Shown one piece after another: positions 7,736 to 23,119 of a stretch of DNA of 25,415 nt (positions are counted from its first letter, which is position 1; each line of letters begins with the position of its first letter). A program made the translations under genes and the position numbers. Source of the DNA: a virus; IMG/VR virus record IMGVR_UViG_3300032396_000154, positions 1 through 25,415 of that record, one strand, 5' to 3'. The notes beneath the pieces are model-generated. The model did not search any database and was not told the origin of the DNA. It worked only from the letters and a program-made list of their open reading frames with translations.

Positions 7736-7750
7736 CCCTCTCCTCAACAC

Positions 7751-7786: not shown

Positions 7787-7806
7787 CAGGTTAACCGGGG
7801 GCCAGG

Positions 7807-7956
7807 TTACTTTCGGGGGTGGCGCTCTTCTTTGGGTGGGATGGTCTGGGGTAACCCCAGCACCTTATCCAAGGCCCGCAGCAGCATGATCACCGCCCGA
7901 CGCAGTTCCATCAACTTCTCTGGATCAACGTCATGATCCATGTCTCCCATTTTCAT
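7807..7956 (-). CDS. Small protein of unknown function (49 residues)
   Basis: I do not recognise this protein. It starts MKMGDMDHDVDPEKLMELRR, continues as one amphipathic helix (AVIMLLRALDKVLGL) and ends with a basic, Pro-rich tail. The start at 7956 is preceded by GGGATG; later ATG codons at 7950 and 7941 are alternatives. The frame remains open further upstream, but that part is the shadow of the glycosyltransferase gene. The gene stands alone between promoter-like sequences and the terminator, so it may be a short separately transcribed unit or a leader peptide. It has no visible signal peptide. Confidence 0.5.
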   Translation of the reverse strand: MKMGDMDHDVDPEKLMELRRAVIMLLRALDKVLGLPQTIPPKEERHPRK

Positions 7957-7983
7957 CTTAACGCATCCCCATTGGTGTGTCAA
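7955..7983 (-). promoter_or_regulatory. Sigma70-like promoter candidate (consensus -35)
   Basis: On the minus strand TTGACA (7983-7978) and TAAGAT (7960-7955) are separated by 17 bases. The -35 box is perfect and the -10 box matches 4 of 6. A six-base inverted repeat, CCATTG (7969-7974) and CAATGG (7981-7986), overlaps the -35 box. The -10 overlaps the first ATG of the 49-residue ORF, so a transcript from here would begin inside that ORF, near its later ATG codons. Confidence 0.4.
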
Positions 7984-7986
7984 TGG

Positions 7987-8015
7987 TGTATAGTACAACG
8001 GTGATAAACACTCAA
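7987..8015 (-). promoter_or_regulatory. Sigma70-like promoter candidate (upstream of the tandem)
   Basis: On the minus strand TTGAGT (8015-8010) and TATACA (7992-7987) are separated by 17 bases, each matching 4 of 6 consensus positions. It lies in the 77-base gap after the last glycosyltransferase of the large cluster and would give a leader of roughly 25 bases before the 49-residue ORF. Confidence 0.4.
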
Positions 8016-8033
8016 TACTACGCGAATGTTCCG

Positions 8034-8759
8034 TTAATGAACGACAACTTTTGACACCACTTTGTAATGTTCCGTCAGTCGAAAGGTCGCATCGCGAATG
8101 CGACACAGGCGGCCCCCCCGCGTGCGCACCAGGGCCTCGTTCCGCTCGCGTTGACGCTCTGCATATACGCCCCGATGACACCCGTCGTGATTCTGGTGAA
8201 TGGCCGTGGCCACCACTGTGGCGTCGATGACGGGAAGGTCCAGGTCTAACGCCCGCCACACCAGCCAGTTATCCCACGACCAGCGGCCCAAGGCAAAGGG
8301 GGGTATCTCCCCCCACATGCCCTTACGGTAGACGAAATAATCAATACCCGCGTCCTGGTGCAGCACGCCGGAGTGGCTCACCTGGTGGCTCAGGTCGGCT
8401 TGCCAGCCTCGTTCGAAGGCCAGTCGGGCTTTCAGATCCAGGTCGTATCGCTGGCCAATCATCAGAAAGTTACCCTCAAACCGTTGGAGGAGGGCTTTGA
8501 TCGCTCGCAGCCAGGATTGCAGCAGGATGATGTCGGTATTGACATAGGCTACGATGTCGGTAGAGGCCAGCGCCTCCCCCTGGGCAAAGACACTGGGGAC
8601 CAACGGGGTGCCAAATTCATCCTTGTCGACGGAGGAGAGTTGGACCCAGCGGACGCAGGGCGAAGGGATCAACCGCCGCCAGGACCGCTGGGCATTCGCT
8701 TCGATGGTCAGGCGCGACTCCAACTGGGTGGGGCAGGTAAAAATCGTCAGACCCGCCAT
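8034..8759 (-). CDS. GT-A-like glycosyltransferase, paralogue of the gene at 10989-11732
   Basis: The protein has 241 residues from the ATG at 8759, which shares its A with the TAA of the upstream gene (TAATG). Motifs in order are AYVNTDIIL (residues 71-79, a possible Asn-x-Asp metal-binding variant of the DxD motif), MIGQRYDLDL, IDYFVYRKGMWG, WSWDNWLVWRAL and VIDATVVATAIHQNH. The same series occurs in the protein at 10989-11732, so the two are divergent copies. The pattern of an Asp near a central strand, a later Trp-Asp-Asn and a final His-Gln-Asn-His fits a nucleotide-sugar transferase fold. Donor and acceptor are unknown. It is the last large gene of the cluster before the terminator region. 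Confidence 0.72.
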   Translation of the reverse strand: MAGLTIFTCPTQLESRLTIEANAQRSWRRLIPSPCVRWVQLSSVDKDEFGTPLVPSVFAQGEALASTDIVAYVNTDIILLQSWLRAIKALLQRFEGNFLMIGQRYDLDLKARLAFERGWQADLSHQVSHSGVLHQDAGIDYFVYRKGMWGEIPPFALGRWSWDNWLVWRALDLDLPVIDATVVATAIHQNHDGCHRGVYAERQRERNEALVRTRGGRLCRIRDATFRLTEHYKVVSKVVVH

Positions 8760-9223
8760 TACCAGCTCGCGCGGGGGTTCTGGGGATTGGCGCACGGGAC
8801 CTGCCGTTCGGCGCGTTCGGCTTGCACGCCATACCCTTCCAAGAATTTGATGCAGAAGGTAATCGTGCCTTCGATCAACTCATCGGTTTCCCCGACCTCG
8901 AAGAACAGGTCGCTGCCGATGCGATGTTCTTTCAGCACATCCCGCAACGCCTGGTGGAGAACAAAACGGTGTTCCTGCTGAAACGTCGCGGGATAGGTGA
9001 TGAGCAACACCGGCACCACACGCGCGATGGGTACCGTTTGCATTTCTTCGGGTCCCCCCGTGCGCAGCGCCCGCTGTTCGGCCTGGCGTCGTTTGCGGTT
9101 CGAGTCCCATTCTTTCTCCTCATAAATCACTTCGATGGAGATCGGCTGGGGAATGATGCTTTCCAGATCAATCGCTCGCGCCACGGTCGAGCGGGGCTTA
9201 CGAGTTCCTCTTGATTTCGCCAT
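8759..9223 (-). CDS. Unknown protein (154 residues)
   Basis: I do not recognise this protein. It has a basic N-terminus (MAKSRGTRKPRSTVARAI), an acidic linker (IEVIYEEKEWDSNRKRRQ) and a compact hydrophobic middle (VARVVPVLLITYPATF is approximate; the gene reads IARVVPVLLITYPATFQ) followed by a helix with HRFVLHQALRDVL and a strand FFEVGETDELIEGTITF. The ATG has AAGGA seven bases upstream. It overlaps the following glycosyltransferase by one base, so the two are co-translated. No membrane anchor or signal peptide is evident. Confidence 0.7.
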   Translation of the reverse strand: MAKSRGTRKPRSTVARAIDLESIIPQPISIEVIYEEKEWDSNRKRRQAEQRALRTGGPEEMQTVPIARVVPVLLITYPATFQQEHRFVLHQALRDVLKEHRIGSDLFFEVGETDELIEGTITFCIKFLEGYGVQAERAERQVPCANPQNPRASW

Positions 9224-9228
9224 GTTCG

Positions 9229-9912
9229 TTATCCTTCATAGATGCTTTGAATATCTTGCGGTCCCACGTGGACCGTATATCCCCAGGATTCTAGCAGGGT
9301 GCATTGGTTCTGTATATGGGTGGCTTCGGTGAACAGGAAGGGATGATCGCGCCGAATGATTCTCGCTCCGCCCCGCAGCACGGATTCCTCACGGCCTTCA
9401 ACATCGATTTTGATAGCATCGACATGAGCAATGTTTTCCCTTCGGCACACCAGGTCCAGCGTGGTCACTTCCACCATCTTCCAGGTACAGCGGTGGTCGG
9501 AGTTTCGAATATCGATGTAGGCCAACCCCGAACACCGGGGGTCATTCGGGATCGTGAGCAGGGCGTTCCCCAGGTAATCCAGGGCAGCATAGGGCAGCAC
9601 GGTGACGCGCGTTTCCAGGGCATTCAGGGCGATATTCTGGGTGAGTACCTGTCGAACCTCCGCGTTGGGCTCCAAGGCCCACACCCGCATTCTGGGATGG
9701 AAGTGGGCCAGCAGACAGAAGCTCCCAGTATTCGCCCCGACATCCAACACGACCGGTTCAGCGAGCGCCTGCACGTGCGTCCAGAAGTCCCAGATCGCCC
9801 CCTGATCATACGCCTGGAGCACGCCGTCCCGTTCGCTTTCCCACGAGCCGCCGTAGCGCGCGGTGTCGTCGTCCAGTTCGACCAGCATCCCGCTACAGAG
9901 TTGACCGCGCAT
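9229..9912 (-). CDS. FkbM-family SAM-dependent methyltransferase
   Basis: The protein has 227 residues. The start ATG has AGGAGG six bases upstream, which decides the start even though it overlaps the preceding glycosyltransferase by 20 bases. SAM-binding motif I is VLDVGANTGSFCLLA (residues 55-69), followed by the acidic-strand motif WALEPNAEV (78-86). The FkbM signature IKIDVEGREESVLRGG appears near the C-terminus. Family members O-methylate sugars or other small hydroxyl acceptors. Being next to a GT2 glycosyltransferase, it probably caps a sugar added by a neighbour. A second FkbM protein is encoded at 17015-17605. Confidence 0.88.
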   Translation of the reverse strand: MRGQLCSGMLVELDDDTARYGGSWESERDGVLQAYDQGAIWDFWTHVQALAEPVVLDVGANTGSFCLLAHFHPRMRVWALEPNAEVRQVLTQNIALNALETRVTVLPYAALDYLGNALLTIPNDPRCSGLAYIDIRNSDHRCTWKMVEVTTLDLVCRRENIAHVDAIKIDVEGREESVLRGGARIIRRDHPFLFTEATHIQNQCTLLESWGYTVHVGPQDIQSIYEG

Positions 9913-10597
9913 CGTCCCTCCTGATCACGGGTTCGAAGTTGTCGGGAAACCCCTGCCGTTCACGTTCGTAGTAGATATAGCCATCCCGTCCCTGCATCGC
10001 CATGTTCTCGCGGTTCAAGTCATCCATCTGCCCACCGTCTCTCGACCAGTGCCGATGCTGCACTACCGACTCTTGGCACCAATAGAAATGTCCTGCACGC
10101 TTGGCGCGAGAATTTGATTCAGTATCGTTCCACGCAAATTCGTACACTGGATAGGCCATAACCCCACCCAAGTGGTCAATGCAAAAATCTCTATCAAATA
10201 AATATTGGACGGATAATATATTGCCGTCTTGGTATCCATCCGAGAAACCACAAAGCCCATACCCGCCCAACTGCTCCTGGTGCGCCTGCAACGCCGCTTC
10301 CAGCCACCCCGGCTCTGGCTCACAGTCGTCGTTGAAGAAGCACAGAATGTCACCCGTGGCGGCGGACAAGCCCTGGTTCCAGCACGCCACTGCGCCCCGC
10401 CGAACCTCGTTGAACAGCACCATCACAGGCGAAGCATTAAGCGCCAGCACGCGGTCACGACTCTCGGTATCCACGTCGATGACCACCAGAATTTCCAGCG
10501 GGCGGTAGGGCGTCGTTTCCAGGATGCGCTGAATGCAGCGGACCAGGCGGTCAGGACGGTTCATGCTGGGCAGGACGATACTCACGATGTCATTCAT
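9893..10597 (-). CDS. GT2-type glycosyltransferase
   Basis: The protein has 234 residues. AAGG precedes the ATG by five bases. The GT-A fold is recognisable from VSIVLPSMNRPDRLVRCIQR (residues 5-24), the first strand and helix typical of GT2, and ILCFFNDDCEPEPGW (84-98), where NDD at 89-91 takes the place of the metal-binding DxD. A mid region GAVACWNQGLSAATGD is the usual 'N-x-G' helix before the DxD. The C-terminal half is shorter and more polar than in long GT2 enzymes. No membrane segments are visible, so it is a soluble cytoplasmic transferase. It is coupled to the FkbM methyltransferase gene downstream. Confidence 0.87.
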   Translation of the reverse strand: MNDIVSIVLPSMNRPDRLVRCIQRILETTPYRPLEILVVIDVDTESRDRVLALNASPVMVLFNEVRRGAVACWNQGLSAATGDILCFFNDDCEPEPGWLEAALQAHQEQLGGYGLCGFSDGYQDGNILSVQYLFDRDFCIDHLGGVMAYPVYEFAWNDTESNSRAKRAGHFYWCQESVVQHRHWSRDGGQMDDLNRENMAMQGRDGYIYYERERQGFPDNFEPVIRRDDARSTL

Positions 10598-10603
10598 TGT
10601 ACC

Positions 10604-10984
10604 TTAATATCTCCTAAATTGAATACTTGGCATAGGGTGATCGGCCTCATGATAGGAGAACCAGATTTCTTCACAGATGGGATCGCGTCGATTGACTATC
10701 ATAGCCTCTTCCCACAAGGCTTCCAGTTCACGGTCCTGTTTTCTCTTCAGTGCATCGCGTTGTTCCTCATGTGAAGCCAGCAAGTCATCTAACCTGTCCT
10801 GAATAGAAAAGCGCTTAGATTTACGCTTGAATTTCATCTTATGTTTAAATGGCCACCATGAGAAAGGAGCATAAAGTTCTGTCCAGCCTGGACGTTCAGG
10901 TGGTGGCGGTGGTTCTGGATATATAGCCATCCCCAATTCTTGGTCATAGTAAGGAGGCGTTTTGGGCTCAGGTTGTGTCACCAT
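10604..10984 (-). CDS. Unknown Pro-rich and basic protein (126 residues)
   Basis: I do not recognise this protein. The N-terminal third is Pro-rich (a run IYPEPPPPPERPGW), followed by a basic patch (KHKMKFKRKSKRF) and a long charged helix (DRLDDLLASHEEQRDALKRK) likely to form a coiled coil. The C-terminus reads ICEEIWFSYHEADHPM. It is placed between two glycosyltransferase genes with gaps of only four and six bases. No catalytic motif is visible. It could be a structural or adaptor protein; that is speculation. Confidence 0.65.
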   Translation of the reverse strand: MVTQPEPKTPPYYDQELGMAIYPEPPPPPERPGWTELYAPFSWWPFKHKMKFKRKSKRFSIQDRLDDLLASHEEQRDALKRKQDRELEALWEEAMIVNRRDPICEEIWFSYHEADHPMPSIQFRRY

Positions 10985-10988
10985 GTGT

Positions 10989-11732
10989 TCACCATTTCAG
11001 GGCTTGCGGCAGTTGCAAGCCACATGTCGCGTGCAGTTCGGGCGGCACGATAGACTTGACGATGCGATGGTTCTGCATCGCGCCGGGATGGCCGTCAAAG
11101 TTCGTCTCTGGGTGATTCTGGTGGACGGCGACAATCGTGCGCGTGGCGTCGATGAAGGTCGCGCCGTGTTTGGTAACTGCGTGCCAGGGGAGGTAATTGT
11201 CCCACGCCAGATGTCCAACACCTAAGCCCGCAGGTAGATAATCGGCCATCCTGGACGATGAGAAAGCAAAATAATCCGTTCCCGTGGGCTTGAGATATTT
11301 ATTTTCAATTATGGCACGTTGGCGCAGGTCATCAAAATCCTCAACGCATTGGTTCACGTTTAGATTGTGGCGCTGTCCGCAAATCATGAACTTCGGATAC
11401 CACACTTTGATAGCGAAGATGGCATTCACAAAATCTTGTGTTAGGCAAATATCGGCATTGACATAGGCTGGGACAACCCCTGCTGGAGTAAAGTTCAGAC
11501 ATTGACTCAGCATCCAGGCAAGGTCGGGACGCCCAAAAGTTGTAAGATGCGCGTTGGGGAGGTGCAAGAGACGATACTTCGCACAGAGTTCCGCCACTCC
11601 GTCGTCGTCTCCGTAAACAATGATGCGTGGTAAAGGGAACAGCGCCAGCCAGGACCGAATAGCATTGTCCTGGTGAATCGCGTCCAGTCCGACCATCGGC
11701 TTACAGGTGGTGAAGATACTCAGGTGGTTCAT
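10989..11732 (-). CDS. GT-A-like glycosyltransferase, paralogue of the gene at 8034-8759
   Basis: The protein has 247 residues. GGAG lies nine bases before the ATG, inside a 19-base repeat shared with the previous junction. Motifs in order are LSIFTTCKP (residues 4-12), AYVNADICL (89-97, possible metal-binding Asn-x-Asp), MICGQRHNLNV, TDYFAFSSSRM, LAWDNYLPWHAV and FIDATRTIVAVHQNH. All have counterparts in the same order in the protein at 8034-8759, with overall divergence high enough to suggest an old duplication or separate acquisition. A transferase role is inferred from the fold-like motif series and the company it keeps. Specificity is unknown. Confidence 0.72.
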   Translation of the reverse strand: MNHLSIFTTCKPMVGLDAIHQDNAIRSWLALFPLPRIIVYGDDDGVAELCAKYRLLHLPNAHLTTFGRPDLAWMLSQCLNFTPAGVVPAYVNADICLTQDFVNAIFAIKVWYPKFMICGQRHNLNVNQCVEDFDDLRQRAIIENKYLKPTGTDYFAFSSSRMADYLPAGLGVGHLAWDNYLPWHAVTKHGATFIDATRTIVAVHQNHPETNFDGHPGAMQNHRIVKSIVPPELHATCGLQLPQALKW

Positions 11733-11747
11733 CCAACTTTACTCCAA
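11729..11747. repeat. Junction direct repeat, downstream copy (pair with 12032-12050)
   Basis: The minus-strand sequence TTGGAGTAAAGTTGGATGA holds the stop of the 98-residue gene, the ribosome site and the start of the next glycosyltransferase. It matches the copy at 12032-12050 at 17 of 19 positions; the copies lie 303 bases apart and bracket exactly one small gene. Confidence 0.75.
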
Positions 11748-12035
11748 CAGGGCATGGTATTTATAGGCGTCCACGGGGTCCGTTTTGCCCTCTTTCTTTT
11801 TCAGTCGATTGGCATACCGAATGAGACGGTCTTCAAAGTGGTAGGCGGGCTCAAAGAGCCAGACCCATACTTCCAAGAAACGCGGGTCACCCTCTTCCAG
11901 ATGGTATTCTATTCGTTCCGGCATGACCTGAAGGGCTTCGTAGAGATAAACATAATCCTCGTCGGAACATGAAAAGGATAACTTATGTGCATAAGGATAA
12001 TAACTGGCCATGAGATTCCGATGTTTATTGCTCAT
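11739..12035 (-). CDS. Unknown small protein (98 residues) bracketed by direct repeats
   Basis: I do not recognise this protein. It starts MSNKHRNLMASYYPYAHKLS and contains an acidic aromatic stretch (CSDEDYVYLYEALQVMPERI) and a basic helix near the end (HFEDRLIRYANRLKKKEG). It overlaps the upstream GT2 gene as ATGA and is separated from the next gene by six bases. Its start and stop regions lie in near-identical 19-base repeats (12032-12050 and 11729-11747), as if the gene had been inserted with duplication of the junction. The gene looks more AT-rich than the transferases around it. Confidence 0.68.
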   Translation of the reverse strand: MSNKHRNLMASYYPYAHKLSFSCSDEDYVYLYEALQVMPERIEYHLEEGDPRFLEVWVWLFEPAYHFEDRLIRYANRLKKKEGKTDPVDAYKYHALLE

Positions 12036-12050
12036 CCGACTTCACTCCAA
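12032..12050. repeat. Junction direct repeat, upstream copy (pair with 11729-11747)
   Basis: The minus-strand sequence TTGGAGTGAAGTCGGATGA encodes the last residues of the GT2 enzyme (Trp-Ser-Glu-Val-Gly-stop) and also carries the ribosome site and start of the 98-residue gene. It matches the downstream copy at 17 of 19 positions. Confidence 0.75.
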
Positions 12051-12895
12051 TATTGTGCGATCTTCAACTCGCCGTCGCGCTCGATGATGGGACAAATCGG
12101 ACGGAACGCATGGCGGGGACGCCAACTCAGCCACTCGCGATGGGCCGCGCGGAACGTCTCATGGTTATGCTCAAACGACTGACGCATCACGTCACTGCCG
12201 GTGTGCGGGCTGGTATTCACGATGTCGAGCGGTAGATACAGGTTGGTATAGCCCCTCCGCAAGAGCTTCACCGACAGATCGGTATCGTCCCAGCAGAACT
12301 TCTCGTAACCGGGTCCGCCCAGCCCGCCTAGCTCGCGCAGCAGAGGCGTAGAGATGGCGAAGGGGCGTGTCACGAAGTCCACGCTATAGAGCGCCAGCGG
12401 ATACTTGCCCTCCGGGATGTTGTGCTTGCCGAAATGCACACCCTTGTGCGGACGATTGGTCTCCACCCGAAAATATGTGTCGCCGTCGGCACCGAAGTAA
12501 CCGCCAGCCAGCAGGGCGGTCGCGCCGGGATGATCGGCCCACTGCTGCGAGTGAACGAGAATGCGATCCCAGTTCGGTTCAAGAGACCAGTTGTCATCCT
12601 GAATGAAAACAATCAGGTCGCTATGATCCGAGGCGTAACCTAACGCCAGATTGTTGGACGCAATCTCGAAGATGTCATCAGTAGAAAATACGTAGATACG
12701 TTCAGTACTCAATAAGGAACGAACCCGTCGATATTCGAATGCAGTCAGATGTGAACCGTCAGTGCAACCATCGCAGACAATGACCGTTTCGTGTCTGTTA
12801 TCTGGAGAAAGGTTCTTGATCCACGAGTCCAGCACGCCTTCTAGCGTCTCCGCTGAATTGTGGACATTGAACACCAGCGTGATGAGTTTGGTCAT
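12032..12895 (-). CDS. GT2-type glycosyltransferase
   Basis: The protein has 287 residues from the ATG at 12895, which shares its A with the TGA of the preceding gene and has GGGGAG upstream; the upstream extension of the frame is not protein-like. It opens with the GT2 strand-helix LITLVFNVHNSAETLEG (residues 4-20), then VIVCDGCTDGSHL (38-50), the DGS/T-D motif that binds the nucleotide, then LIVFIQDDNWSLEPNW (94-109) with QDD as the metal site, and FCWDDTDLSVKLLRRGY later, with the catalytic-type Asp residues. It is soluble. It should transfer a sugar by inversion, acceptor unknown. Confidence 0.88.
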   Translation of the reverse strand: MTKLITLVFNVHNSAETLEGVLDSWIKNLSPDNRHETVIVCDGCTDGSHLTAFEYRRVRSLLSTERIYVFSTDDIFEIASNNLALGYASDHSDLIVFIQDDNWSLEPNWDRILVHSQQWADHPGATALLAGGYFGADGDTYFRVETNRPHKGVHFGKHNIPEGKYPLALYSVDFVTRPFAISTPLLRELGGLGGPGYEKFCWDDTDLSVKLLRRGYTNLYLPLDIVNTSPHTGSDVMRQSFEHNHETFRAAHREWLSWRPRHAFRPICPIIERDGELKIAQYWSEVG

Positions 12896-13170
12896 CAGTT
12901 TCTCCCCGTCACGCGATTGACCATGCGCATCCAGCCGTTCCACAGCCAATCAAGCCAAAACATGCGCAGAAGTCCACGGTAGGTTTTAGTGTCCATTTCC
13001 GTGAAGGTTAGCGTAATGGTTGGCAAGTCACCCTTGACAAGTTTGACGGGTTCTCCAGTATCCTTGTCCGCCAAGCCCCATGAAATATCCTGGATAGGAC
13101 CGATAACGTGTACATCACCGTTTTGGTCTATAAACCTCACCTGTGCATTCGTGCCCTCGTATTTACCCAT
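12895..13170 (-). CDS. Unknown small protein (91 residues)
   Basis: I do not recognise this protein. The start at 13170 has GGAGG shortly upstream and overlaps the previous gene by eight bases; the longer open frame upstream is a Gly/Ala/Cys-rich shadow. The protein begins MGKYEGTNAQVRFIDQNGDV, continues with beta-like segments (VHVIGPIQDISWGLADKD, PTITLTFTEMDTKTY) and ends in a Trp-rich basic helix (FWLDWLWNGWMRMVNRV) that could touch a membrane or pack on a partner. It is coupled to the GT2 gene. Confidence 0.65.
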   Translation of the reverse strand: MGKYEGTNAQVRFIDQNGDVHVIGPIQDISWGLADKDTGEPVKLVKGDLPTITLTFTEMDTKTYRGLLRMFWLDWLWNGWMRMVNRVTGRN

Positions 13171-13561
13171 CCCATCCTCCGCCGCGCAGCACGTGCCAGA
13201 GGCCGCGCACGCGATAGGACACGGGGATGCTGACCCGCCGCCAGGTGCGCATGTACCACGACCGATTCCGGCGGTCTCTCCGAACGCCAGGGGCAATCGC
13301 ATGTTCAATCCGCGCCATGAACTGGGAGTAAATAGCATCCAGTTCCTCATCAGGGTCGGGTTGCAAAGCCACCTGCTGATAATCCAGGAACAGCTCGCGG
13401 AGCTGCTGGTAGTCCTCAGTGGTCACGACGTAGGTGCGTTCCCCGATGCCCGCCATGCCATTTTTGTCCTGCCAGATCCAGTAGGTGCCTAGATGACCGT
13501 CCCCCAGGTCAATACGTTCCCCATAGTCGTAGATTTCCAGGCTCATCACGCGGTCACTCAT
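13163..13561 (-). CDS. Unknown protein (132 residues)
   Basis: I do not recognise this protein. It is started at the ATG at 13561, which overlaps the methyltransferase stop as ATGA and has GGAGG upstream (TTGGAGGAAACAATG). The N-terminal half is acidic and beta-like (MSLEIYDYGERIDLGDGHLG, TYWIWQDKNG). A helical middle (TTEDYQQLRELFLDYQQVAL) leads to a strongly basic, Trp-rich C-terminus (RRDRRNRSWYMRTWRRVS) that could bind nucleic acid, a membrane surface or an acidic partner. No enzyme motif is visible. Confidence 0.68.
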   Translation of the reverse strand: MSDRVMSLEIYDYGERIDLGDGHLGTYWIWQDKNGMAGIGERTYVVTTEDYQQLRELFLDYQQVALQPDPDEELDAIYSQFMARIEHAIAPGVRRDRRNRSWYMRTWRRVSIPVSYRVRGLWHVLRGGGWDG

Positions 13562-14160
13562 TGTTTCCTCCAACAGGTCATCGACCACCATTCATCGACC
13601 AGCGTCACCCGTTCATCAACCAACAGGCTCAATGCGACCTGGGTGGGTCCTTCCCAGCCCTGATTGTAGACCCCGACTGGCGTACCATCAACCCGACGCG
13701 AATCATGCAGCACCATCAGCCCGCCCGGTTGCAGCATCGGCAACCAGTCCTCCACGTCCTGCGCCACGTGCTCATAGAGATGACTGCCATCGATGTACAG
13801 GAAGTCACAGGACAACCCGTAATGCGACGCCACTCCGGCAATGTCATGCGACGTGCCGCAGTGTAGTGCCCAACGACTCGCGTCCAGCTTGAGCACCTTG
13901 GCCGCGTGCTCGACGTAGATGCGCACCTGTCCGGGATCGGACCGCCACGTGCCTTCACTGTCACCCGCGAAGTTGTCGATGCTGTGGACCGTGCCGCGTG
14001 TGTGCATGAGCAGCAGCACCGCACTCGCCCCAAAGCCCGCGCCGATTTCGACGGCGACCTGCGCCCCCGTACACCAGCGGCAGAAGGGGTCAATCTCGGT
14101 CGGATGAATAAACGCTTTTGCGCCGGGTCCCATTGCCAGTTCGAGTTCATCACGAGTCAT
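13558..14160 (-). CDS. SAM-dependent methyltransferase (Methyltransf_24 type)
   Basis: The protein has 200 residues. Motif I for SAM binding is VAVEIGAGFGASAVLLL (residues 35-51), followed by VHSIDNFAGD (58-67), the acidic end of strand two. The motif FLYIDGSHLYEHVAQD (120-135) and the closing PGGLMVLHDS (145-154) are the signature of the Methyltransf_24 family, seen in sugar and small-molecule methyltransferases such as those near antibiotic and O-antigen genes. It overlaps both neighbours by four bases. A sugar hydroxyl or an amine is a likely acceptor, inferred from the surrounding glycosyltransferases. Confidence 0.87.
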   Translation of the reverse strand: MTRDELELAMGPGAKAFIHPTEIDPFCRWCTGAQVAVEIGAGFGASAVLLLMHTRGTVHSIDNFAGDSEGTWRSDPGQVRIYVEHAAKVLKLDASRWALHCGTSHDIAGVASHYGLSCDFLYIDGSHLYEHVAQDVEDWLPMLQPGGLMVLHDSRRVDGTPVGVYNQGWEGPTQVALSLLVDERVTLVDEWWSMTCWRKQ

Positions 14161-16774: not shown

Positions 16775-17046
16775 TCGTCCTCCGTTTGTAAATATTGAGG
16801 TTTCGCGAAAACGTTATTATAGAGCATGGTGATAAACCATCGGTTATTAAAAGGATCTACTGCCAACTCTCCACCCGTAACCCATTTCCACACGAGCGAT
16901 TCAAATGGAATTGATATTTTAGCCTGTTCTTCACTATCAAATACGCCTGCAATTTCCGTTTCTTGTTCATAATCATTAAAGAAACGAATATATTGAAGAA
17001 TGTAGATAGGGTGATTAGGCTCGCTCAAAGGTCCAGTTCTCCTCAT
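16771..17046 (-). CDS. Unknown small AT-rich protein (about 91 residues)
   Basis: I do not recognise a named family. The segment IYILQYIRFFNDYEQETEIA followed by GVFDSEEQAK has the pattern of small phage proteins with a strand, 'i-x-G-V-F', then a helix starting 'S-x-E-x-A'. The start is uncertain: ATG at 17046, ATG at 17067, or TTG at 17028 preceded by GAGGAG and giving the shortest overlap with the methyltransferase. I counted 68 G+C in 180 bases (16801-16980, 38%), well below 38 in 60 (63%) in the adjacent methyltransferase gene (17281-17340), which suggests a different origin. Confidence 0.65.
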   Translation of the reverse strand: MRRTGPLSEPNHPIYILQYIRFFNDYEQETEIAGVFDSEEQAKISIPFESLVWKWVTGGELAVDPFNNRWFITMLYNNVFAKPQYLQTEDE

Positions 17047-17605
17047 ATCCTGCGGTCTGGGTATCATACCCGATCATCTTGAACCCTGCCGGTTCCAGCA
17101 ACTCGCAGACCTCACGCGGTCCATATTCCTCCTGGTAGGTCTGCGTATCCGACACGTTGACCTCAATCGTGATACGTTCCACATTTTGGAGCCGCTCCCC
17201 CAGTCCCCGCAGCACATGCAGCCCGTTGCCCTGGGTGTCGATCTTGAGCCACGTCACGCGGTCGATGCTCATCTGCGTCATGAACGTGTCCAGCCGGATC
17301 ACCTGGGTCAGCACCCGCCCGACCTCCGCAAAGTTGAAGCCCTCCGGCCAGCGTGTCAGTCCCTCCCGATCCAGGCGGTGCAGCGACGAACAGCCCGGCA
17401 CGCGATTCAGATAAAGCCACGCCCAACCATCGGTGTCACCAACCGCCACGGGGATGAGATGATAGTTGGGCGCAGCGCCATACACGAACCGCCAGGCTCG
17501 TGGGTCGGGCTCAAAGGCATACACTGGGGTGTCAGGATGGGCAAACGCATACGGCAGCATCACTTCGCCGCGATGCGCCCCCACGTCCAAGGCACAGGTG
17601 GTCAT
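17015..17605 (-). CDS. FkbM-family SAM-dependent methyltransferase
   Basis: The protein has 196 residues, started at the ATG at 17605 that shares its A with the preceding TAA. Motif I is ALDVGAHRGEVMLPYA (residues 5-20) and motif II is VYAFEPDPRAW (28-38), both typical of FkbM. The FkbM signature appears as WLKIDTQGNGLHVLRGLG, with Asp-Thr-Gln-Gly where many members have Asp-Val-Glu-Gly. The protein is slightly shorter than the copy at 9229-9912 and starts almost directly at motif I. It probably methylates a sugar hydroxyl on the glycan built by the neighbouring enzymes. Confidence 0.87.
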   Translation of the reverse strand: MTTCALDVGAHRGEVMLPYAFAHPDTPVYAFEPDPRAWRFVYGAAPNYHLIPVAVGDTDGWAWLYLNRVPGCSSLHRLDREGLTRWPEGFNFAEVGRVLTQVIRLDTFMTQMSIDRVTWLKIDTQGNGLHVLRGLGERLQNVERITIEVNVSDTQTYQEEYGPREVCELLEPAGFKMIGYDTQTAGYEENWTFERA

Positions 17606-17952
17606 TAAAGTTGATGATCCTTCGCGATCAATCGCAGCAGGTGGAGTTGTTCGTCACTCACCCCCCCTCGGTGGTTGAAAATCAAGAACTTCAATCGGGC
17701 CGAGCCATAACTATACTGAATGAGATTGGTGTCCGACACCATAAACCAGACGTGACAACTAATCCTGTCGGTGACATCCAGGCTAGTCACAGGGACTTCT
17801 TTACGCAGAATGGCACCGCATAATACGGCAACCTGTCCCAGGTGATAGAAAGCTCGTTGAAAGCTCCATTCTTCTTCCCGCGCAGCCAACTCAAAACCCG
17901 TGACGAGTTGAGGGGATAAGGTCTTTAATAAGGGATCATTCAGATAGGGCAT
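17605..17952 (-). CDS. Unknown protein (115 residues), likely paralogue of the gene at 18151-18504
   Basis: I do not recognise this protein. The segment EWSFQR followed after a gap by VLCGAIL aligns with EWRFKR and VLCAARL in the protein at 18151-18504, and later strand regions (NLIQYSYGSARLKFLIFN against QVIYTSLTETFVLCN) and a final helix also line up. The two look like divergent copies. The ribosome site GAGGA lies inside a short repeat (17958-17975) that is also found before the two preceding junctions. The gene is coupled to the FkbM methyltransferase. There is no enzyme motif, signal peptide or membrane span. Confidence 0.66.
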   Translation of the reverse strand: MPYLNDPLLKTLSPQLVTGFELAAREEEWSFQRAFYHLGQVAVLCGAILRKEVPVTSLDVTDRISCHVWFMVSDTNLIQYSYGSARLKFLIFNHRGGVSDEQLHLLRLIAKDHQL

Positions 17953-17957
17953 ATCTC

Positions 17958-17975
17958 ATCTGTTCCTCAATCCAC
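17958..17975. repeat. Junction repeat copy C (related to epimerase 3' end)
   Basis: The plus-strand sequence atctgttcctcaatccac matches copy B (18170-18187) at 16 of 18 positions. Here it contains the stop of the 63-residue gene and the ribosome site of the next gene. The reading that gives Trp-Ile-Glu-Glu-Gln is present but out of frame with the gene. Confidence 0.7.
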
Positions 17976-18158
17976 CTTCGGTCTTTCATCAGGCAGATTC
18001 TTCGGCTTGGTGAGCACGACCGTCAGGGCGTTCAGCCCAAAGTTGTGAACCAAATGGGCCTGAACTGTCCATCTCTCATCGAGCAACTGATTGACTTCCG
18101 CTTCCCCGCGTTCACAATCCTGGTCGTTCAAGGGGTTGAATACCACATATTTAATCAT
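17967..18158 (-). CDS. Unknown small protein (63 residues)
   Basis: This protein starts MIKYVVFNPLNDQDCERGEA and has EVNQLLDERWTVQAHLV followed by LTVVLTKP. The pattern (a strand, then 'V-N-x-L-L-x-E-x-W' and two short strands) is reminiscent of small DUF1737-like proteins, but the match is by eye and weak. The start at 18158 overlaps the previous gene by eight bases; the open frame upstream of it is a shadow. It lies between two probable paralogues, and its stop codon falls inside a junction repeat. Confidence 0.6.
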   Translation of the reverse strand: MIKYVVFNPLNDQDCERGEAEVNQLLDERWTVQAHLVHNFGLNALTVVLTKPKNLPDERPKVD

Positions 18159-18504
18159 GAGATTCCCTGACCTGCTCCTCAATCCACTGAGACACGACCG
18201 ACATATCAGTCTCATTGAAAGGCAATCGATCCTCAATGGGATCGTAGTTGCAAAGCACAAAAGTTTCGGTCAATGAGGTATAAATGACCTGCCCTGACTC
18301 CCGTTTATTGACCCCGAAGGCATAAATAACGATGCGATGTTCATCCAGGGTTATCCCGAACTGCTCTAAACGAGCAGCGCAAAGCACGTACCATTGACTA
18401 CTCACAAGGATACAGCGCTTGAATCTCCATTCCATCAGATGCCACTGCAAATCATGAGCCGTGACCACAGAGAGTCCCCATTCGGTTGGAATATTGTTAA
18501 CCAT
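18151..18504 (-). CDS. Unknown protein (117 residues) ending in an epimerase-like tail
   Basis: I do not recognise the core of this protein. Residues around EWRFKR and VLCAARL align with the protein at 17605-17952 (EWSFQR, VLCGAIL). The final segment SQWIEEQVRESHD reproduces the end of the epimerase encoded just upstream (YRWIEEQVRNG), and the DNA in the two places matches at 16 of 18 bases. This looks like a copied gene end rather than chance. The start overlaps the epimerase stop by eight bases, and a GAGGAG ribosome site sits in the epimerase 3' end. Confidence 0.66.
   Translation of the reverse strand: MVNNIPTEWGLSVVTAHDLQWHLMEWRFKRCILVSSQWYVLCAARLEQFGITLDEHRIVIYAFGVNKRESGQVIYTSLTETFVLCNYDPIEDRLPFNETDMSVVSQWIEEQVRESHD
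18170..18187. repeat. Junction repeat copy B
   Basis: The plus-strand sequence acctgctcctcaatccac matches copy A (18510-18527) and copy C (17958-17975) at 16 of 18 positions each. On the minus strand it encodes Trp-Ile-Glu-Glu-Gln-Val at the end of the 117-residue protein and carries GAGGAG before the next start. Confidence 0.75.
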
Positions 18505-19516
18505 TGCGCACCTGCTCCTCGATCCAGCGGTACGTCAGTTCCAGCCCGCCATCCAGCGACCGCTGCGGCTCCCAGTCCAGCACGGCCTTACACAACATGT
18601 TGTCCGAGTTCCGCCCCTGCACGCCCACCGGTCCCTCGACATGCACCAGGTCGATGTCCACTTGCGCAATCCGCGCAATGGCATAGGCCAGGTCGTTGAT
18701 CGAGATCGCGCGGTCACTGCCGATGTTGAGCGGGGCGGCATAATGGCTATGCATCAGGCGGTAGAGACCTTCCAGGCAGTCGTCGATGTAGAGAAAGGAT
18801 CGCGTCGCCGTGCCATCCCCCCAGATTTCGATGGGGAGAGTCTTATGCAACGGTTCCCAACCGTCCGCCGTCGATACCGATGGAGCTAACGGACCATCGC
18901 GCAGTTTCCATTTCATCTCGGCAATCTTGCGACACAAGGCCGCTGGAGCTTTCTCCCGTCCGCCCTGCCACGTCCCTTGTGGGCCGTAGACGTTGTGAAA
19001 ACGGGGGATGCGCACCGTCATGCCGTACTGGCGCGCATACGCCAGCGCCACCTGTTCAGCATACAACTTCTCCCACCCATACTCAGTGTCAGGCCAGGCC
19101 GGAAGGGCGTCGCTTTCCTTGAGCGGAGCGGCGTCCAGGGTGGTTTGTTTGAAGCCGGGATAGACACACGCGCTCGACGTGTACAGGTAGCGACCGACCT
19201 TGGCGTGCCGCGCCGCCTCTATCGTGTGGAGATTGATGAGCGCGTTCTGGTGCAGGATGTACGCCCCCTGCTGGCTGATGTAGCCCATGCCGCCCATCTC
19301 CGCCGCCAGCGCGTACACTTCATCGAAGCCGCCCTCCAGCGCTTCGGTCGCCGCCAAGGGGTAGGTCAGGTCCAGCAGCAGGAACTCGTCAGCGGCAGAG
19401 TCGGAGAACTCCGGGTACTTCTTATCCACCCCGCGCACCCAGTAGCCCTTGGCCTTCAGGTACTCGACCAGATGGCTGCCAATGAACCCGCCTGCGCCCG
19501 ATACCAGTGCTCGCAT
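18497..19516 (-). CDS. GDP-mannose 3,5-epimerase-like sugar epimerase (SDR family)
   Basis: The protein has 339 residues. The NAD-binding loop is SGAGGFIGSHL (residues 6-16). AAEMGGMGYI (71-80), SSACVYPGFKQT (114-125), the Y146-x3-K150 pair and GTWQGGREKAPAALCRK (181-197) match plant GDP-mannose 3,5-epimerase. Using the published Arabidopsis catalytic numbering as I recall it (Cys145, Tyr174, Lys178, Lys217), the equivalents here (Cys117, Tyr146, Lys150, Lys189) keep the same offset of 28. The late motif GVQGRNSDN also fits. The family converts GDP-D-mannose to GDP-L-galactose and GDP-L-gulose. About 25 extra residues (roughly 201-227) lie before WGDGTATRSF. The gene is flanked by small orphan genes; the epimerase would supply unusual L-sugars to nearby transferases. 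Confidence 0.88.
   Translation of the reverse strand: MRALVSGAGGFIGSHLVEYLKAKGYWVRGVDKKYPEFSDSAADEFLLLDLTYPLAATEALEGGFDEVYALAAEMGGMGYISQQGAYILHQNALINLHTIEAARHAKVGRYLYTSSACVYPGFKQTTLDAAPLKESDALPAWPDTEYGWEKLYAEQVALAYARQYGMTVRIPRFHNVYGPQGTWQGGREKAPAALCRKIAEMKWKLRDGPLAPSVSTADGWEPLHKTLPIEIWGDGTATRSFLYIDDCLEGLYRLMHSHYAAPLNIGSDRAISINDLAYAIARIAQVDIDLVHVEGPVGVQGRNSDNMLCKAVLDWEPQRSLDGGLELTYRWIEEQVRNG
18510..18527. repeat. Junction repeat copy A (within epimerase 3' end)
   Basis: The plus-strand sequence acctgctcctcgatccag encodes Trp-Ile-Glu-Glu-Gln-Val on the minus strand, a native part of the epimerase C-terminus. Copies B and C lie 340 and 552 bases further along the direction of transcription, which makes this the probable source. 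Confidence 0.75.
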
Positions 19517-19521
19517 TTGCT

Positions 19522-19827
19522 CTACTCCATCAACATAATACCATCAGCGGGAGGCCAGAGGGTATAGGGTTCATCGGGAGCGGTTGCCATATACTCCAGT
19601 GTAGCCTGCCACTGATGATTCTCGTTGGGGTGGTACGTCTTTTCTACGATGCGATACATCCGGCGTTTGTCCTTCGATGATCCGCGAAAAAAGATGTAAT
19701 CCCCGTCGCTAAATTCACTGGCGAACCCAAAAACAAAGATCCAGCCGGACAGACCATCATCGGTAGGGTACCACATAAAGTGGGGAGCGCGTGGATCAGC
19801 ACAGTCTAGAGCCCGATGGGTAGTCAT
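19522..19827 (-). CDS. Unknown protein (101 residues)
   Basis: I do not recognise this protein. It overlaps the preceding gene as ATGA and ends five bases before the epimerase start. The protein is aromatic-rich and beta-like: FMWYPTDDGLSGWIFVFGF, then SEFSDGDYIFFRG, then a basic turn (SSKDKRRMYRIVEKTYH) and HQWQATLEYM. The pattern suggests a small beta-barrel or SH3-like domain, but that is a guess from strand spacing. No catalytic motif is seen. Confidence 0.66.
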   Translation of the reverse strand: MTTHRALDCADPRAPHFMWYPTDDGLSGWIFVFGFASEFSDGDYIFFRGSSKDKRRMYRIVEKTYHPNENHQWQATLEYMATAPDEPYTLWPPADGIMLME

Positions 19828-20216
19828 TTCTTCTTCCCGATGAACATTTTGCCATCCTGATCCACATATCCGAAGGGTTCGCCTTCTTTGGTCTCAATCG
19901 TCGTCGCGATTTTCACGGCAGCCGTTAAATCGCCCATTTGGTTGACGACCGTGACCTGTTGACCCCGCAAGGCATCGTGGATTACAACGCCAATAGGTAA
20001 CCAGATCACGGGAGCCTGAAACCGTTGCCAGAACCGCTGCCAGCGGGTCAGCACACGCGGGTAGGGATAGACTATCTCAGGGTGATCCGGTCGATAGGCC
20101 ACGATCATGCCCGCCTGGAGCGGTTCACCAGCCATCCGATGGCAGGTCATCATGGGGGAAGCCAGGACCACCCCATCCTGCTCTGGATCTCCCATGTACA
20201 TCGAATAGTCTTTCAT
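19824..20216 (-). CDS. Unknown protein (130 residues)
   Basis: I do not recognise this protein. The start at 20216 overlaps the dehydrogenase stop as ATGA; an earlier start codon would extend it by 11 residues. It begins MKDYSMYMGDPEQDG, has a strand-rich front (PLQAGMIVAYRPDHPEIVYP), a basic aromatic helix (RWQRFWQRFQAPVIWLP) and a C-terminal beta region ending in FGYVDQDGKMFIGKKK. The hydrophobic segment PVIWLPIGVVI is too short and mixed for a confident membrane span. It is co-translated with a sugar dehydrogenase. Confidence 0.66.
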   Translation of the reverse strand: MKDYSMYMGDPEQDGVVLASPMMTCHRMAGEPLQAGMIVAYRPDHPEIVYPYPRVLTRWQRFWQRFQAPVIWLPIGVVIHDALRGQQVTVVNQMGDLTAAVKIATTIETKEGEPFGYVDQDGKMFIGKKK

Positions 20217-21568
20217 TGGCCCACTCCCAGCGGAACATAACGTTTGCACCAGAAGGATAGCTCCGTCATGGCACGCCAGGGGTCAATGAGAGTCTTAGAA
20301 AGCATCAGCGCCAATTCGACCTGGGTGAAATCGGGGTGCATGAGCACTATCACATCAGCCTTATCGCAGCAGTCAGCGTTGTTATTGGCATACTCGACCG
20401 CGCAGCCCAACGCCGTGCGCGCCTCGTCCATCGCCAGCGGGTCGTAGACCACCACCCGACGCTGCGGGTTCATCAGCAGGTGGTCGATCAGATCCAGACT
20501 GGCTGACTCTTCGCAGACCGATGTGCCCGGTTTGTACGCCAGCCCCAACACGCCGACTACGCCCTCGTCGCCCGCTTCGCGCTCCACGATGCGCCACAGA
20601 TGGTCAGTCATCGCGTCGTTCGTCACATCCACCACCTCGCGCAGGGATAAGGTCGACGTTTTAGGAACCCCGGCGCGTTCGAAGACGATTTCCAACGCCC
20701 GCGAGTCTCTGGGATAGCACGGTCCCCCGTAGGCTGTGCCTGCCTTGAAATAAAGTGAGCCGACGCGGGGATCATCCCCGATGATGCGCGTGACTTCATC
20801 AACGTTGGCGTGGGGAAGATGCTCGCATAACCGTCCCAGGTCATTGACGAACGAAATCTTATTGGTGACGAAAGCATTGTCCGCGATTTTGGCGATCTCG
20901 CAGTTAATCCACGTGGAGCATCGCACGTCTTTCCCCTCGATATAGCGCTCGTAAATCTTCAGCAGCAGATCACGTGCCTGATCGTTCTCGGCCCCCACCA
21001 TCGCTACCTTGGGATGGACCAGATCGTGAATGACGCTGCCCAGGGCGATCATCGTGGGGCTGTAGACCAACCCGAAGTCGTGCCCCTCCATCTTGCCACT
21101 TTCGCGTTCCAGGATGGAGCAGCACTCGCGCGTCTGACCCGGCATGACCGTGCTCACTAGGATGACCAGATGATATGAGGTCTTCTCTTTCAGGGACAGC
21201 CCGATGTGTTCCATAACTGGCGCGAGATAGTCCAGCGTAAAGCCCCCATCTACCCCACTGGGTGTCGGCACGATCACGAACGTTGCGTCGGAGTCCAGGA
21301 CGGCTTGGCGCAGGTCCGTGGTGGCACTATATTGGCGAATACGAGGTTTTTCATTGGACCAGCCACCACCGACACCGACACGTTCGTAATAAACATGCTG
21401 TAGCCATGCCTGCAAGTCGGTTTCTTCGACCGGTGCTTTGCCCGCGTTGAGGGACGCGACTTTCGCTTCATCCGTATCCACGCCGATCACTGAGAAGCCC
21501 GCGTCAGCGAGTACCGCCAGCAGGGGAGCGCCGAGTTTGCCCAGTCCTACGACCGAGAGAGTTGTCAT
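20213..21568 (-). CDS. UDP-glucose/GDP-mannose dehydrogenase family enzyme
   Basis: The protein has 451 residues from the ATG at 21568, where it overlaps the previous gene as ATGA and the Rossmann fold begins at once (SVVGLGKLGAP, residues 5-15). STVMPGQTRE (139-148) corresponds to the family 'S-T-V-x-P-G-x-T'. EIAKIADNAFVTNKISFVND (224-243) is the central helix with the substrate-binding Lys and Asn, and GGPCYPRD (281-288) carries the catalytic Cys284. The family oxidises the C6 hydroxyl of a nucleotide-sugar with two NAD+, giving UDP-glucuronate, GDP-mannuronate or a related uronate; which substrate is used here cannot be read from the sequence. The enzyme would feed a uronic acid to the transferases around it. 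Confidence 0.9.
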   Translation of the reverse strand: MTTLSVVGLGKLGAPLLAVLADAGFSVIGVDTDEAKVASLNAGKAPVEETDLQAWLQHVYYERVGVGGGWSNEKPRIRQYSATTDLRQAVLDSDATFVIVPTPSGVDGGFTLDYLAPVMEHIGLSLKEKTSYHLVILVSTVMPGQTRECCSILERESGKMEGHDFGLVYSPTMIALGSVIHDLVHPKVAMVGAENDQARDLLLKIYERYIEGKDVRCSTWINCEIAKIADNAFVTNKISFVNDLGRLCEHLPHANVDEVTRIIGDDPRVGSLYFKAGTAYGGPCYPRDSRALEIVFERAGVPKTSTLSLREVVDVTNDAMTDHLWRIVEREAGDEGVVGVLGLAYKPGTSVCEESASLDLIDHLLMNPQRRVVVYDPLAMDEARTALGCAVEYANNNADCCDKADVIVLMHPDFTQVELALMLSKTLIDPWRAMTELSFWCKRYVPLGVGQ

Positions 21569-21852
21569 TTGTTTTCTCCAGGTACGATGACGCGAAGGAT
21601 GGGGTTCAATTTCAATTGCTCCAACAAAAGGCCCACGGCTTCGTCGCTCATGACGGGAGCGCACGTCAGGTCGATATAGGCAAAACGCCCCGTCTCGAAG
21701 TGGATGTCCACCTTTTGCAAGGTGTCAGGAGAAATTCCCAGGGAATCCAGAAATGGCTTGAGAATGTTGATCCCAAATACGTGATTGGAGGGCGTCTTGC
21801 CCTGATCTGCGATCATTGTTTCCACCATAGTCTCCAAATCAGATGTTTCCAT
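21565..21852 (-). CDS. Unknown small protein (95 residues)
   Basis: I do not recognise this protein. It starts METSDLETMVETMIADQGKT and looks like a small alpha/beta fold: an N-terminal helix, then ILKPFLDSLGISPDTLQKV, strands VDIHFETGRFAYIDLTC and a helix DEAVGLLLEQLKLNP. The ATG at 21852 has no ribosome site but lies eight bases after TATAAC; ATG codons at 21828 and 21816 are alternatives. It is coupled to the dehydrogenase gene through ATGA. Confidence 0.65.
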   Translation of the reverse strand: METSDLETMVETMIADQGKTPSNHVFGINILKPFLDSLGISPDTLQKVDIHFETGRFAYIDLTCAPVMSDEAVGLLLEQLKLNPILRVIVPGENK

Positions 21853-21939
21853 CCGATAATGTTATACCGAAACCCATACATATCAATTGCATGGTGAGCT
21901 ATCGCCAATCGGTGCCATCGCCAGATAAACACGGTGGTC

Positions 21940-22272
21940 TTATTCATCATCAGAGACCTTTATCTCGGAAAACTCAGAATGACCTGCCATCACGCTGGAA
22001 GCATAGATGACCATCTTGGCGTCTCCTTCTATTTTTATCCAATGGGAAGGAGATTTCAGAGTTTCATTAAACCCGAAGAGACCAGGGATGACGAGACTAC
22101 CATCCGGTTGCAGATATGCCTTAGAGCGAACCCCGCGATTTTCAACGATAAAATGAAGCGGCTCACTCCAACTGTAATCAGGGCGTTCCAGGGAAATCGG
22201 TTCGTAGCCATTACCTCGCAAGAGTTGTTCGGCTAAGGCTTGACCTTCATCGGTCACTGTAAAATGTTCCAT
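21940..22272 (-). CDS. Unknown protein (110 residues)
   Basis: I do not recognise this protein. It begins MEHFTVTDEGQALAEQLLRG, which resembles the start of a small winged-helix domain ('T-x-x-G-x-x-L-A-x-x-L'), but the remainder is beta-rich (SEPLHFIVENRG, GSLVIPGLFGFNETLK, WIKIEGDAKMVIYASS) and does not continue that pattern. It starts three bases after the GT2 gene, with GGAG upstream. An 87-base gap follows with no gene. Acidic C-terminus, no membrane span. Confidence 0.65.
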   Translation of the reverse strand: MEHFTVTDEGQALAEQLLRGNGYEPISLERPDYSWSEPLHFIVENRGVRSKAYLQPDGSLVIPGLFGFNETLKSPSHWIKIEGDAKMVIYASSVMAGHSEFSEIKVSDDE

Positions 22273-22275
22273 CGC

Positions 22276-23043
22276 TCATTCTCCATACGGGGCGTGCAGC
22301 CCAATCACCTGCGGGTCGAGCGGTTGCGGGTCCAGAAACGGGATGGTCGCGCGCAGCGGGTACTGGGGAATAGGATGATCCGGTGGCAGTGCCGTCACGG
22401 CGGTCAGCCCGTCCGCCACCCGCTCATAATTCAGCCATTTCAATGCGCGTTCCGCCAGCGGTTTGATGCCCTCATAATGATAGATAGGCATGTGGGGGAC
22501 GAAGATGATGTCCCGTTCGACTGTCGGGGACGTGTTGTTGGGGTCTTCCTTCCACAGTTGGTAGGCATTCGTCCCGGCGTGCAGGTTGCCATGCCATCGA
22601 AAGCCCTGGTGCAACTGGACAAAACGCAACTGCTTGTCCGGGCACAGGTAGGGGCAGAAGTGATAGCGGTCTTCGCTGAAGTTATAACGCGGGGTGATGA
22701 CCACCTTGTATACGTGCAACAGATTAGCGCATTGGTCGATGTGGCGGGGCCACATGAGTTCGTCGGGGTCCCACTTAAAATAGGCATCGTAGCCCAGTTC
22801 TTCGCAGCGTTCCACGACGCAGTTCTGCTGGTTCCCGAAATGCCAATCCCAGTCGCGACGAAAGAGATGCCAAGGAATGCCATGCAGAGCGCAGATGGTG
22901 GCTACCACCCTATCGCTGTCGTCCGTGCTGCCCCCATCCACGGCCACCACGCCATCAATCCTGCCCGATTGCAGAATGACAGGCAGGTGCAGACGCAACC
23001 AGGACGCTTCATTCAGGAATTGAAAGCCGAGGGCGAATTTCAT
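22276..23043 (-). CDS. GT2-type glycosyltransferase (first gene of the large cluster)
   Basis: The protein has 255 residues. It opens ALGFQFLNEASWLRLHL (residues 4-20), followed by VVAVDGGSTDDSDRVV (32-47), the nucleotide-binding motif of GT2, and AYFKWDPDELMWPRH (88-102), where DPDE at 92-95 forms the metal site. Several His, Trp and Tyr residues around VKVVITPRYNFS-like strands (the gene reads YKVVITPRYNFSEDRYHF) fit a soluble GT-A enzyme that works on polar acceptors. GGAG lies 11 bases upstream. It is the first gene after the portal and is preceded by a promoter-like gap. Confidence 0.87.
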   Translation of the reverse strand: MKFALGFQFLNEASWLRLHLPVILQSGRIDGVVAVDGGSTDDSDRVVATICALHGIPWHLFRRDWDWHFGNQQNCVVERCEELGYDAYFKWDPDELMWPRHIDQCANLLHVYKVVITPRYNFSEDRYHFCPYLCPDKQLRFVQLHQGFRWHGNLHAGTNAYQLWKEDPNNTSPTVERDIIFVPHMPIYHYEGIKPLAERALKWLNYERVADGLTAVTALPPDHPIPQYPLRATIPFLDPQPLDPQVIGLHAPYGE

Positions 23044-23079
23044 GACGGCAAGACTCCGCTGGGCGTCTAGAGGATAACG

Positions 23080-23117: not shown

Positions 23118-23119
23118 GG

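Follow-up and report, generated by a model that had tools for sequence, protein, structure and literature searches.

A siphophage clade known from uncultured members probably glycosylates its own virions, by means of a system lying within the head operon which joins one fixed glycosyltransferase (GT) to a swappable cassette of sugar genes. The system was found on a stretch of viral DNA of 25,415 bases (the window), which is the entire virus record IMGVR_UViG_3300032396_000154. Every phage gene of the window lies on the minus strand. In order of transcription they specify an unassigned protein, the portal, the cassette, a putative protease/scaffold, the decoration protein, the major capsid protein (MCP) and a GT4-type glycosyltransferase; these are followed by connector and neck genes, the major tail protein, a chaperone and the beginning of the tape-measure gene.

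A glycosyltransferase beside the major capsid protein gene

The strongest clue to virion glycosylation is the GT gene situated directly after that for the MCP, which is absent from the initial annotation. By sequence criteria its product is a GT4 (GT-B) enzyme, possessing the EX7E motif and a likeness to solved GT4 enzymes. In the window the motif reads EGWGMFPRE, of which E241, G242, W243 and G244 are invariant and E249 nearly so (alignment A6). A search of the PDB with the family profile gave as best match the chlorella virus GT B736L (3oy2, 7.5e-8); 3oka was also found.

Relatives (loci numbered with the prefix L) were gathered by scans, the MCP pair yielding 25 loci, the portal family 43, and a pair of cassette transferases termed GTx the locus L076. 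The GT4 gene adjoins the 3' side of the MCP gene in 34 of the 36 loci having sequence past the MCP (24 non-redundant at 95%); a script counted 33, and L083, where the boundary of the GT open reading frame (ORF) precedes the end of the MCP, was added by hand. The exceptions are L099 and L100, the MCP of which is only 32% identical. A GT4 homolog occupies the equivalent place in five more distant loci (L134, L135, L136, L139 and L142). Mean pairwise identity is 0.51 for both GT4 and the neck protein and 0.60 for the MCP, and the pairwise identities of GT4 correlate with those of the neck (Spearman 0.85), tail completion (0.80) and MCP (0.66) genes. Because its level of identity resembles that of the neck and tail completion genes, and its pairwise identities track theirs, GT4 behaves as part of the head module, passed on together with the structural genes, and not as a visitor. 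A tblastn search of 50,697 phage records found GT4 matches in Streptomyces, Rhodococcus, Arthrobacter and Microcystis phages only, the best listed identities being 24-34%; sequences of mycobacteriophage Corndog, discussed below, lay outside this direct comparison. In L076 an ORF specifying an IscB-like nuclease (RuvC + HNH; 9566-10963) is inserted between the MCP and GT4 genes; its sequence looks like that of a mobile-element gene.

A hypervariable cassette between portal and protease

The portal-protease interval of the window measures 15.4 kb and contains about 29 same-strand ORFs, the starts and stops of which nearly overlap. It holds seven GT genes, three methyltransferases, a GDP-mannose 3,5-epimerase (GME) homolog, a nucleotide-sugar dehydrogenase and interleaved small ORFs (Table 1). 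From the portal the enzymes follow in the order GT2, dehydrogenase, epimerase, FkbM, GT-B, GT-B and, toward the protease, Methyltransf_24, GT2-like, GTx1, GT2, FkbM, GTx2. The initial annotation had described a block of sugar genes at this position; ORFs, strand, near-overlaps, coordinates and enzyme counts were all verified, with about 29 genes in place of its 28 or so. Its limits also hold in general, the end at 7807 being slightly loose (the ORF there is probably about 49 amino acids long, 7807-7956). The product of the gene forming the right border showed no direct protease match in Pfam or PHROG. Its family is kept at the same place in relatives, has an invariant His and Ser (alignment A12) and ends in a coiled-coil-like region.

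Table 1. Features of the window, in order of transcription
Feature	Position	Strand	Evidence
Unassigned protein	24846-25391	-	
Portal, left cassette border	23120-24865	-	phrog_104 E=6e-6; family alignment A9
GT2-type, first gene past portal	22276-23043	-	PF00535 E=9e-4, below cut-off
About 15 further small ORFs among sugar genes	7807-22272	-	mostly phage-like codon usage
UDP-glucose/GDP-mannose-type 6-dehydrogenase	20213-21568	-	TIGR03026 267 bits (cut-off 190); PDB 3gg2 E=5e-49; GGPC motif
Small protein sm2	19824-20249	-	related to L002 small protein (32% identity)
GDP-mannose 3,5-epimerase homolog	18497-19516	-	PDB 2c59 (plant enzyme) E=2e-85
Small-ORF segment absent from L002	17605-18504	-	about 900 bases; L002 joins 18509 to 17605 almost directly
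FkbM methyltransferase 1	17015-17605	-	PF05050 1e-16; TIGR01444 above cut-off
GT1-type (GT-B) a	15839-16774	-	PF00534 E=3e-4, weak; L084 homolog E=2e-35
GT1-type (GT-B) b	14881-15846	-	PF00534 2e-9, above cut-off; L076 homolog E=6e-80
Class I methyltransferase (Methyltransf_24)	13558-14160	-	PF13578 6e-18; homologs in L076, L084
GT2-like	12032-12949	-	weak match to GalT1 5hea (E=0.04); L076 homolog E=2e-46
GTx copy 1, GT-A-fold transferase	10989-11732	-	AlphaFold + Foldseek
GT2	9893-10597	-	PF00535 2e-19
FkbM methyltransferase 2	9229-9912	-	PF05050 4e-17; TIGR01444; L076 homolog
Small protein sm12	8759-9223	-	kept in L076 at equivalent place, E=1e-14
GTx copy 2	8034-8795	-	34% identical to copy 1
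Right cassette border, putative prohead protease-scaffold fusion	6104-7750	-	phrog_3219 (unknown function), weak scaffold-like match
Head decoration protein	5660-6088	-	phrog_122 4e-4; 16-member alignment
Major capsid protein (MCP)	4511-5647	-	phrog_3990 3e-8; clade alignments; C-terminus NPTIS
Core GT4-type glycosyltransferase, directly after MCP	3443-4483	-	phrog_2170 8e-24; EX7E motif
Major tail protein	1238-1771	-	

The assembly is sound. That the locus might be a misjoin of a phage contig with a host polysaccharide locus, an alternative raised by the initial annotation, is refuted: only the oddity of the position speaks for it, while identical junctions recur in the independent contigs L002 and L076, which carry the matching order, and similar cassettes occur in many relatives. 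In L002, which comes from another dataset, the genes for portal, GT2, dehydrogenase, epimerase and FkbM are arranged as in the window; their DNA is 82-88% identical, except for that of the dehydrogenase (70%). L001 (99.9%) covers 14099-25415 and L004 (99.9%) 1-7172; the part from 7172 to 14099 is spanned by the window contig alone, and L076 shows a similar order there. In L076, the MCP of which is 49% identical, the sequence runs GME end, GT1b, Methyltransf_24, FkbM2, GT2, GT2b, sm12, GTx2, protease, decoration protein, MCP and GT4.

Compared with L002, the ratios of nonsynonymous to synonymous substitution rates (dN/dS) are 0.15 for GT2, 0.23 for the dehydrogenase and 0.11 for the epimerase, the portal also giving 0.11; the sugar genes are thus under purifying selection. 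One might regard the cassette as passive cargo from host polysaccharide loci, stuffer DNA with no function in the phage, and both its G+C content (0.51-0.59, below the approximately 0.60 of the flanks) and its highly variable content among relatives would suit this. We consider it very improbable in view of these dN/dS values (0.11-0.23), the intact and compact ORFs, and the repeated presence of the same functional class in the interval of relatives. Within the dehydrogenase, agreement with L002 is uneven: identity is 0.90 over the first 40 residues, 0.40 over residues 172-211 and 0.97 over residues 332-371, a pattern that may reflect recombination or an altered substrate.

In 17 relatives the gap between portal and protease is 1.0-8.2 kb, as against 15.4 kb in the window, the largest seen. 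Seventy-seven interval ORFs of relatives, a few of them MuF-like, were scanned, and these include GT2 (8), GT-B (about 4-6), epimerase/dehydratase (5), DegT aminotransferase (2) and hexapeptide acyltransferase (2) genes, as well as several methyltransferases. Contents differ from locus to locus: L087 carries an amino-sugar type set (short-chain dehydrogenase, hexapeptide acyltransferase and aminotransferase), L093 two GT2 genes and a GTx, and L111/L089 a methyltransferase with a GT-B enzyme. The MuF-like minor head protein that normally follows the portal (38 portal loci, alignment A11) was found neither in the window (including 23044-23119) nor in L002 or L127. The interval is a hypervariable, swappable locus, with a logic comparable to that of a bacterial O-antigen locus. 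One ORF from the intervals of relatives (A10 set) encodes a TIR domain (PF13676, E=9e-21), of a kind frequent in immunity.

Four of the seven cassette GTs were recognized through Pfam GT2/GT1 (two above cut-off, two weak), one by similarity and its homolog, and two with AlphaFold. The GT2 gene next to the portal is kept in L002, and its homolog in the L109 interval exceeds the PF00535 cut-off, as does the L076 homolog (G006:4080-4415) of the GT2-like gene. The GTx family gave no Pfam match and its profile found only noise in the PDB. Its AlphaFold model (eight relatives; predicted local distance difference test, pLDDT, 77) had as best Foldseek matches glycosyltransferases and other GT-A-like nucleotide-sugar enzymes; on this model the fold search settles the pair as glycosyltransferase-type. 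GTx copy 2 has the same place in L076, and members also occur in L080, L084 and L093. On an unrelated phage contig, L075, the region 8229-20638, right after the head-completion genes, holds at least three GTx genes, one a tandem double, along with methyltransferases and genes for a nucleotide-sugar dehydrogenase and a nucleotidyltransferase-like protein.

Two enzymes might supply unusual sugars. The dehydrogenase, which probably starts at the ATG at 21568, scores above the NCBIfam threshold for the nucleotide sugar dehydrogenase subfamily, without assignment to a single substrate; it is predicted to form a uronate. The alignment of the epimerase to 2c59 spans all active-site segments (Cys, YxxxK and GREKAPA), and we take the aligned Cys, Tyr/Lys and Lys segments to be the catalytic residues of plant GME. 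Because the alignment runs through all of these, the enzyme is expected to form GDP-L-galactose or GDP-L-gulose. The FkbM and Methyltransf_24 genes are compatible with O-methylation.

The small ORFs are a separate matter. The in-frame codon score was highest for 16 of the 17 tested, the seventeenth being mis-framed by the chosen boundary, which suggests that the majority are translated. Searches gave them no confident family matches and hardly any homologs, so that nearly all stand without relatives. A decoration-like acceptor role for sm2 was considered and rejected (hhalign probability only 0.4%; AlphaFold model uninformative). A homolog of sm11 (10604-10984) lies upstream of the terminase gene in another phage contig (L009, 3601-4050). 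Since L002 has different small ORFs, others at places equivalent to those of the window, and no segment 17605-18504, the small ORFs turn over while the sugar genes around them stay in place. A 21-nucleotide repeat (family D1), whose sequence comes from the epimerase gene's 3' end, is present at 17955-17975, 18167-18187 and 18507-18527; these copies flank the small ORFs absent from L002 and suggest insertion or loss through recombination.

Virion proteins as the probable target

No convincing transmembrane helix was detected in any cassette protein, and hence no flippase, polymerase or polyprenyl-phosphate transferase. The set alone therefore could not export a lipid-linked polysaccharide, and the acceptor should be cytoplasmic. 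The position of GT4, its strand and its co-inheritance with the capsid genes point to a virion protein. In the scheme that follows we infer the acceptor, the order of reactions, the late expression and the identity of the glycan. Late in infection activated sugars would be made from host pools, the epimerase converting GDP-mannose to GDP-L-galactose or GDP-L-gulose and the dehydrogenase UDP-glucose or GDP-mannose to a uronate. The conserved soluble GT4 would start the chain by attaching a sugar to a virion protein in the cytoplasm, be it the capsid, decoration or tail-tube subunit, the cassette GTs would lengthen the chain in sequence, and the FkbM and Methyltransf_24 enzymes would cap or methylate it. 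Assembled particles would thus display an oligosaccharide, the chemistry of which is set by the cassette. The benefit may lie in shielding from host or environmental binders, or in altered adsorption.

Throughout the clade these proteins end in short, conserved Pro/Ser/Thr tails: NPTIS, ATVS and similar in the MCP, DPSS-like in the decoration protein and PPT/PPTNIS-like in the tail protein. According to PMC12619734, the capsid and tail-tube subunits of mycobacteriophages bear their glycans at the C-terminus, and for this reason the tails are candidate acceptors. They are only a lead, because L099 keeps the tail with no adjacent GT.

An alternative target is the host surface, where lipopolysaccharide (LPS), capsule or S-layer glycans might be altered, in the course of infection or lysogeny, to block superinfection or to help release. 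FkbM and GT families are frequent in surface polysaccharide loci, and cyanophages S-SCSM1 and P-SSM2 carry large LPS-type clusters, there of no known function (PMC3037559). We nevertheless think this unlikely: the locus contains no flippase, polymerase, polyprenyl-phosphate transferase, GtrA-like or other membrane protein, its genes are inside the head operon, and the MCP-adjacent GT is inherited with the structural genes. A still weaker case can be made for glycosylation of DNA, with GTs decorating hypermodified bases against restriction. Phage GTs can act on DNA (PMC12619734), and L002 has DNA-methyltransferase-like genes (6534-7981). However, PF00303 (thymidylate synthase/hydroxymethylase-type) was not found in ten clade records, incomplete genomes that include contigs of 34.6, 44.9 and 50.9 kb. 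One or two GTs would suffice for such a task, to which an epimerase, a dehydrogenase and three O-methyltransferase-like enzymes are atypical, and the position beside the MCP would be left unexplained; the idea is accordingly quite improbable.

Several points weigh against virion glycosylation. L090, L128 and L108 retain the GT with little or no cassette (none in L090), and L099 and L100 have a similar MCP C-terminus yet no GT after the MCP. For several of the seven cassette GTs the assignment depends on weak similarity or on fold, and about 15 small ORFs have no explained role. The evidence for the system is genomic, and the supply of GDP-mannose by the host is an assumption. Followed through the TerL of L002, a contig from a Rhodospirillales metagenome-assembled genome (51%) and Methanosarcina virus MetMV (47%) were matched, but these loci lack the portal/MCP/GT4 module and were not accepted as pointers to the host.

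Related systems and significance

The closest parallel is found in the cluster O mycobacteriophages Corndog and Catdawg, in which an O-methyltransferase (gp35) and three GTs (gp36, gp37 and gp38) lie between portal gp34 and protease gp39 (PMC4351075). Corndog virions are reported to be glycosylated (Freeman 2023, as cited in PMC12363180), and its capsid peptides were unexpectedly rare in mass spectra (PMC4351075). In both systems GTs and O-methyltransferases are encoded between the portal and capsid protease genes, in a siphovirus head operon and on the strand of the structural genes. They differ in that the window has about 29 genes as against four, including sugar-nucleotide synthesis genes, and a GT directly after the MCP, neither of which is reported for Corndog, the host of which is actinobacterial. 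Furthermore, the window MCP shows no detectable similarity among phage records: MCP, GT1a, GT2a and FkbM1 had no relatives among the 50,697 mentioned above. A tblastn search of the same records with the GT genes at 15839, 22276 and 9893 gave no mycobacteriophage match, Corndog sequences again lying outside the direct comparison.

Comparable gene numbers, with GTs and methyltransferases together, are seen in the LPS-type clusters of cyanomyoviruses S-SCSM1, S-SSM7 and P-SSM2, and the S-SCSM1 GME homolog is 47% identical to the window epimerase. Those clusters lie outside the head operon, in the vicinity of hli03 or phoH and close to tRNAs (PMC3037559), in much larger, T4-like genomes. Capsid glycosylation in the chlorella viruses (PBCV-1/NY2A) likewise employs virus-encoded GTs and sugar synthesis, and B736L is the closest solved GT; these are giant eukaryotic viruses, however, and the GT4 homology is remote (E=7.5e-8) and common to many GT4 enzymes. 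Phage serotype-converting gtr operons need the membrane proteins GtrA/GtrB. They too encode GTs active in phage infection or lysogeny, but such membrane proteins are missing from the window locus. The cassette also differs from Wzx/Wzy or ABC surface-polysaccharide loci in having no membrane flippase, polymerase or initiating transferase.

The initial annotation had called a set of this size at this place unusual. The position has a precedent: in cluster O mycobacteriophages the genes between portal and protease likewise encode GTs and an O-methyltransferase (PMC4351075). Glycan clusters that match it in size exist, elsewhere in the genome, in cyanophages (S-SCSM1 record; PMC3037559). Its interpretation, a virion-linked, methylated glycan bearing uronate and L-sugar, is partly supported. 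The fixed GT beside the MCP clade-wide, purifying selection and the lack of membrane or lipid-carrier genes give good support to the virion link, and the dehydrogenase, epimerase and methyltransferase families predict such sugars. The kind of system is already known; what sets this one apart is its scale, the sugar-nucleotide synthesis, the GT fixed beside the MCP throughout the clade and the swappable cassette.

A more elaborate picture, which we regard as possible though rather doubtful, is that of a widespread clade with a two-part glycan "serotype": a near-invariant GT4 would prime the conserved Ser/Thr tail of the MCP, the P-S/T tails of the decoration and tail-tube proteins being parallel cases, and swapping of the cassette between phages would change the glycan on display. 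If virion glycosylation as such is confirmed, an entire environmental clade would inherit it as a core character, whereas until now it is shown in a few mycobacteriophages with a handful of enzymes. The diversity of phage surface antigens would then be a selectable, locus-encoded trait, and the clade would be a source of soluble protein glycosylation pathways that operate without a lipid carrier.

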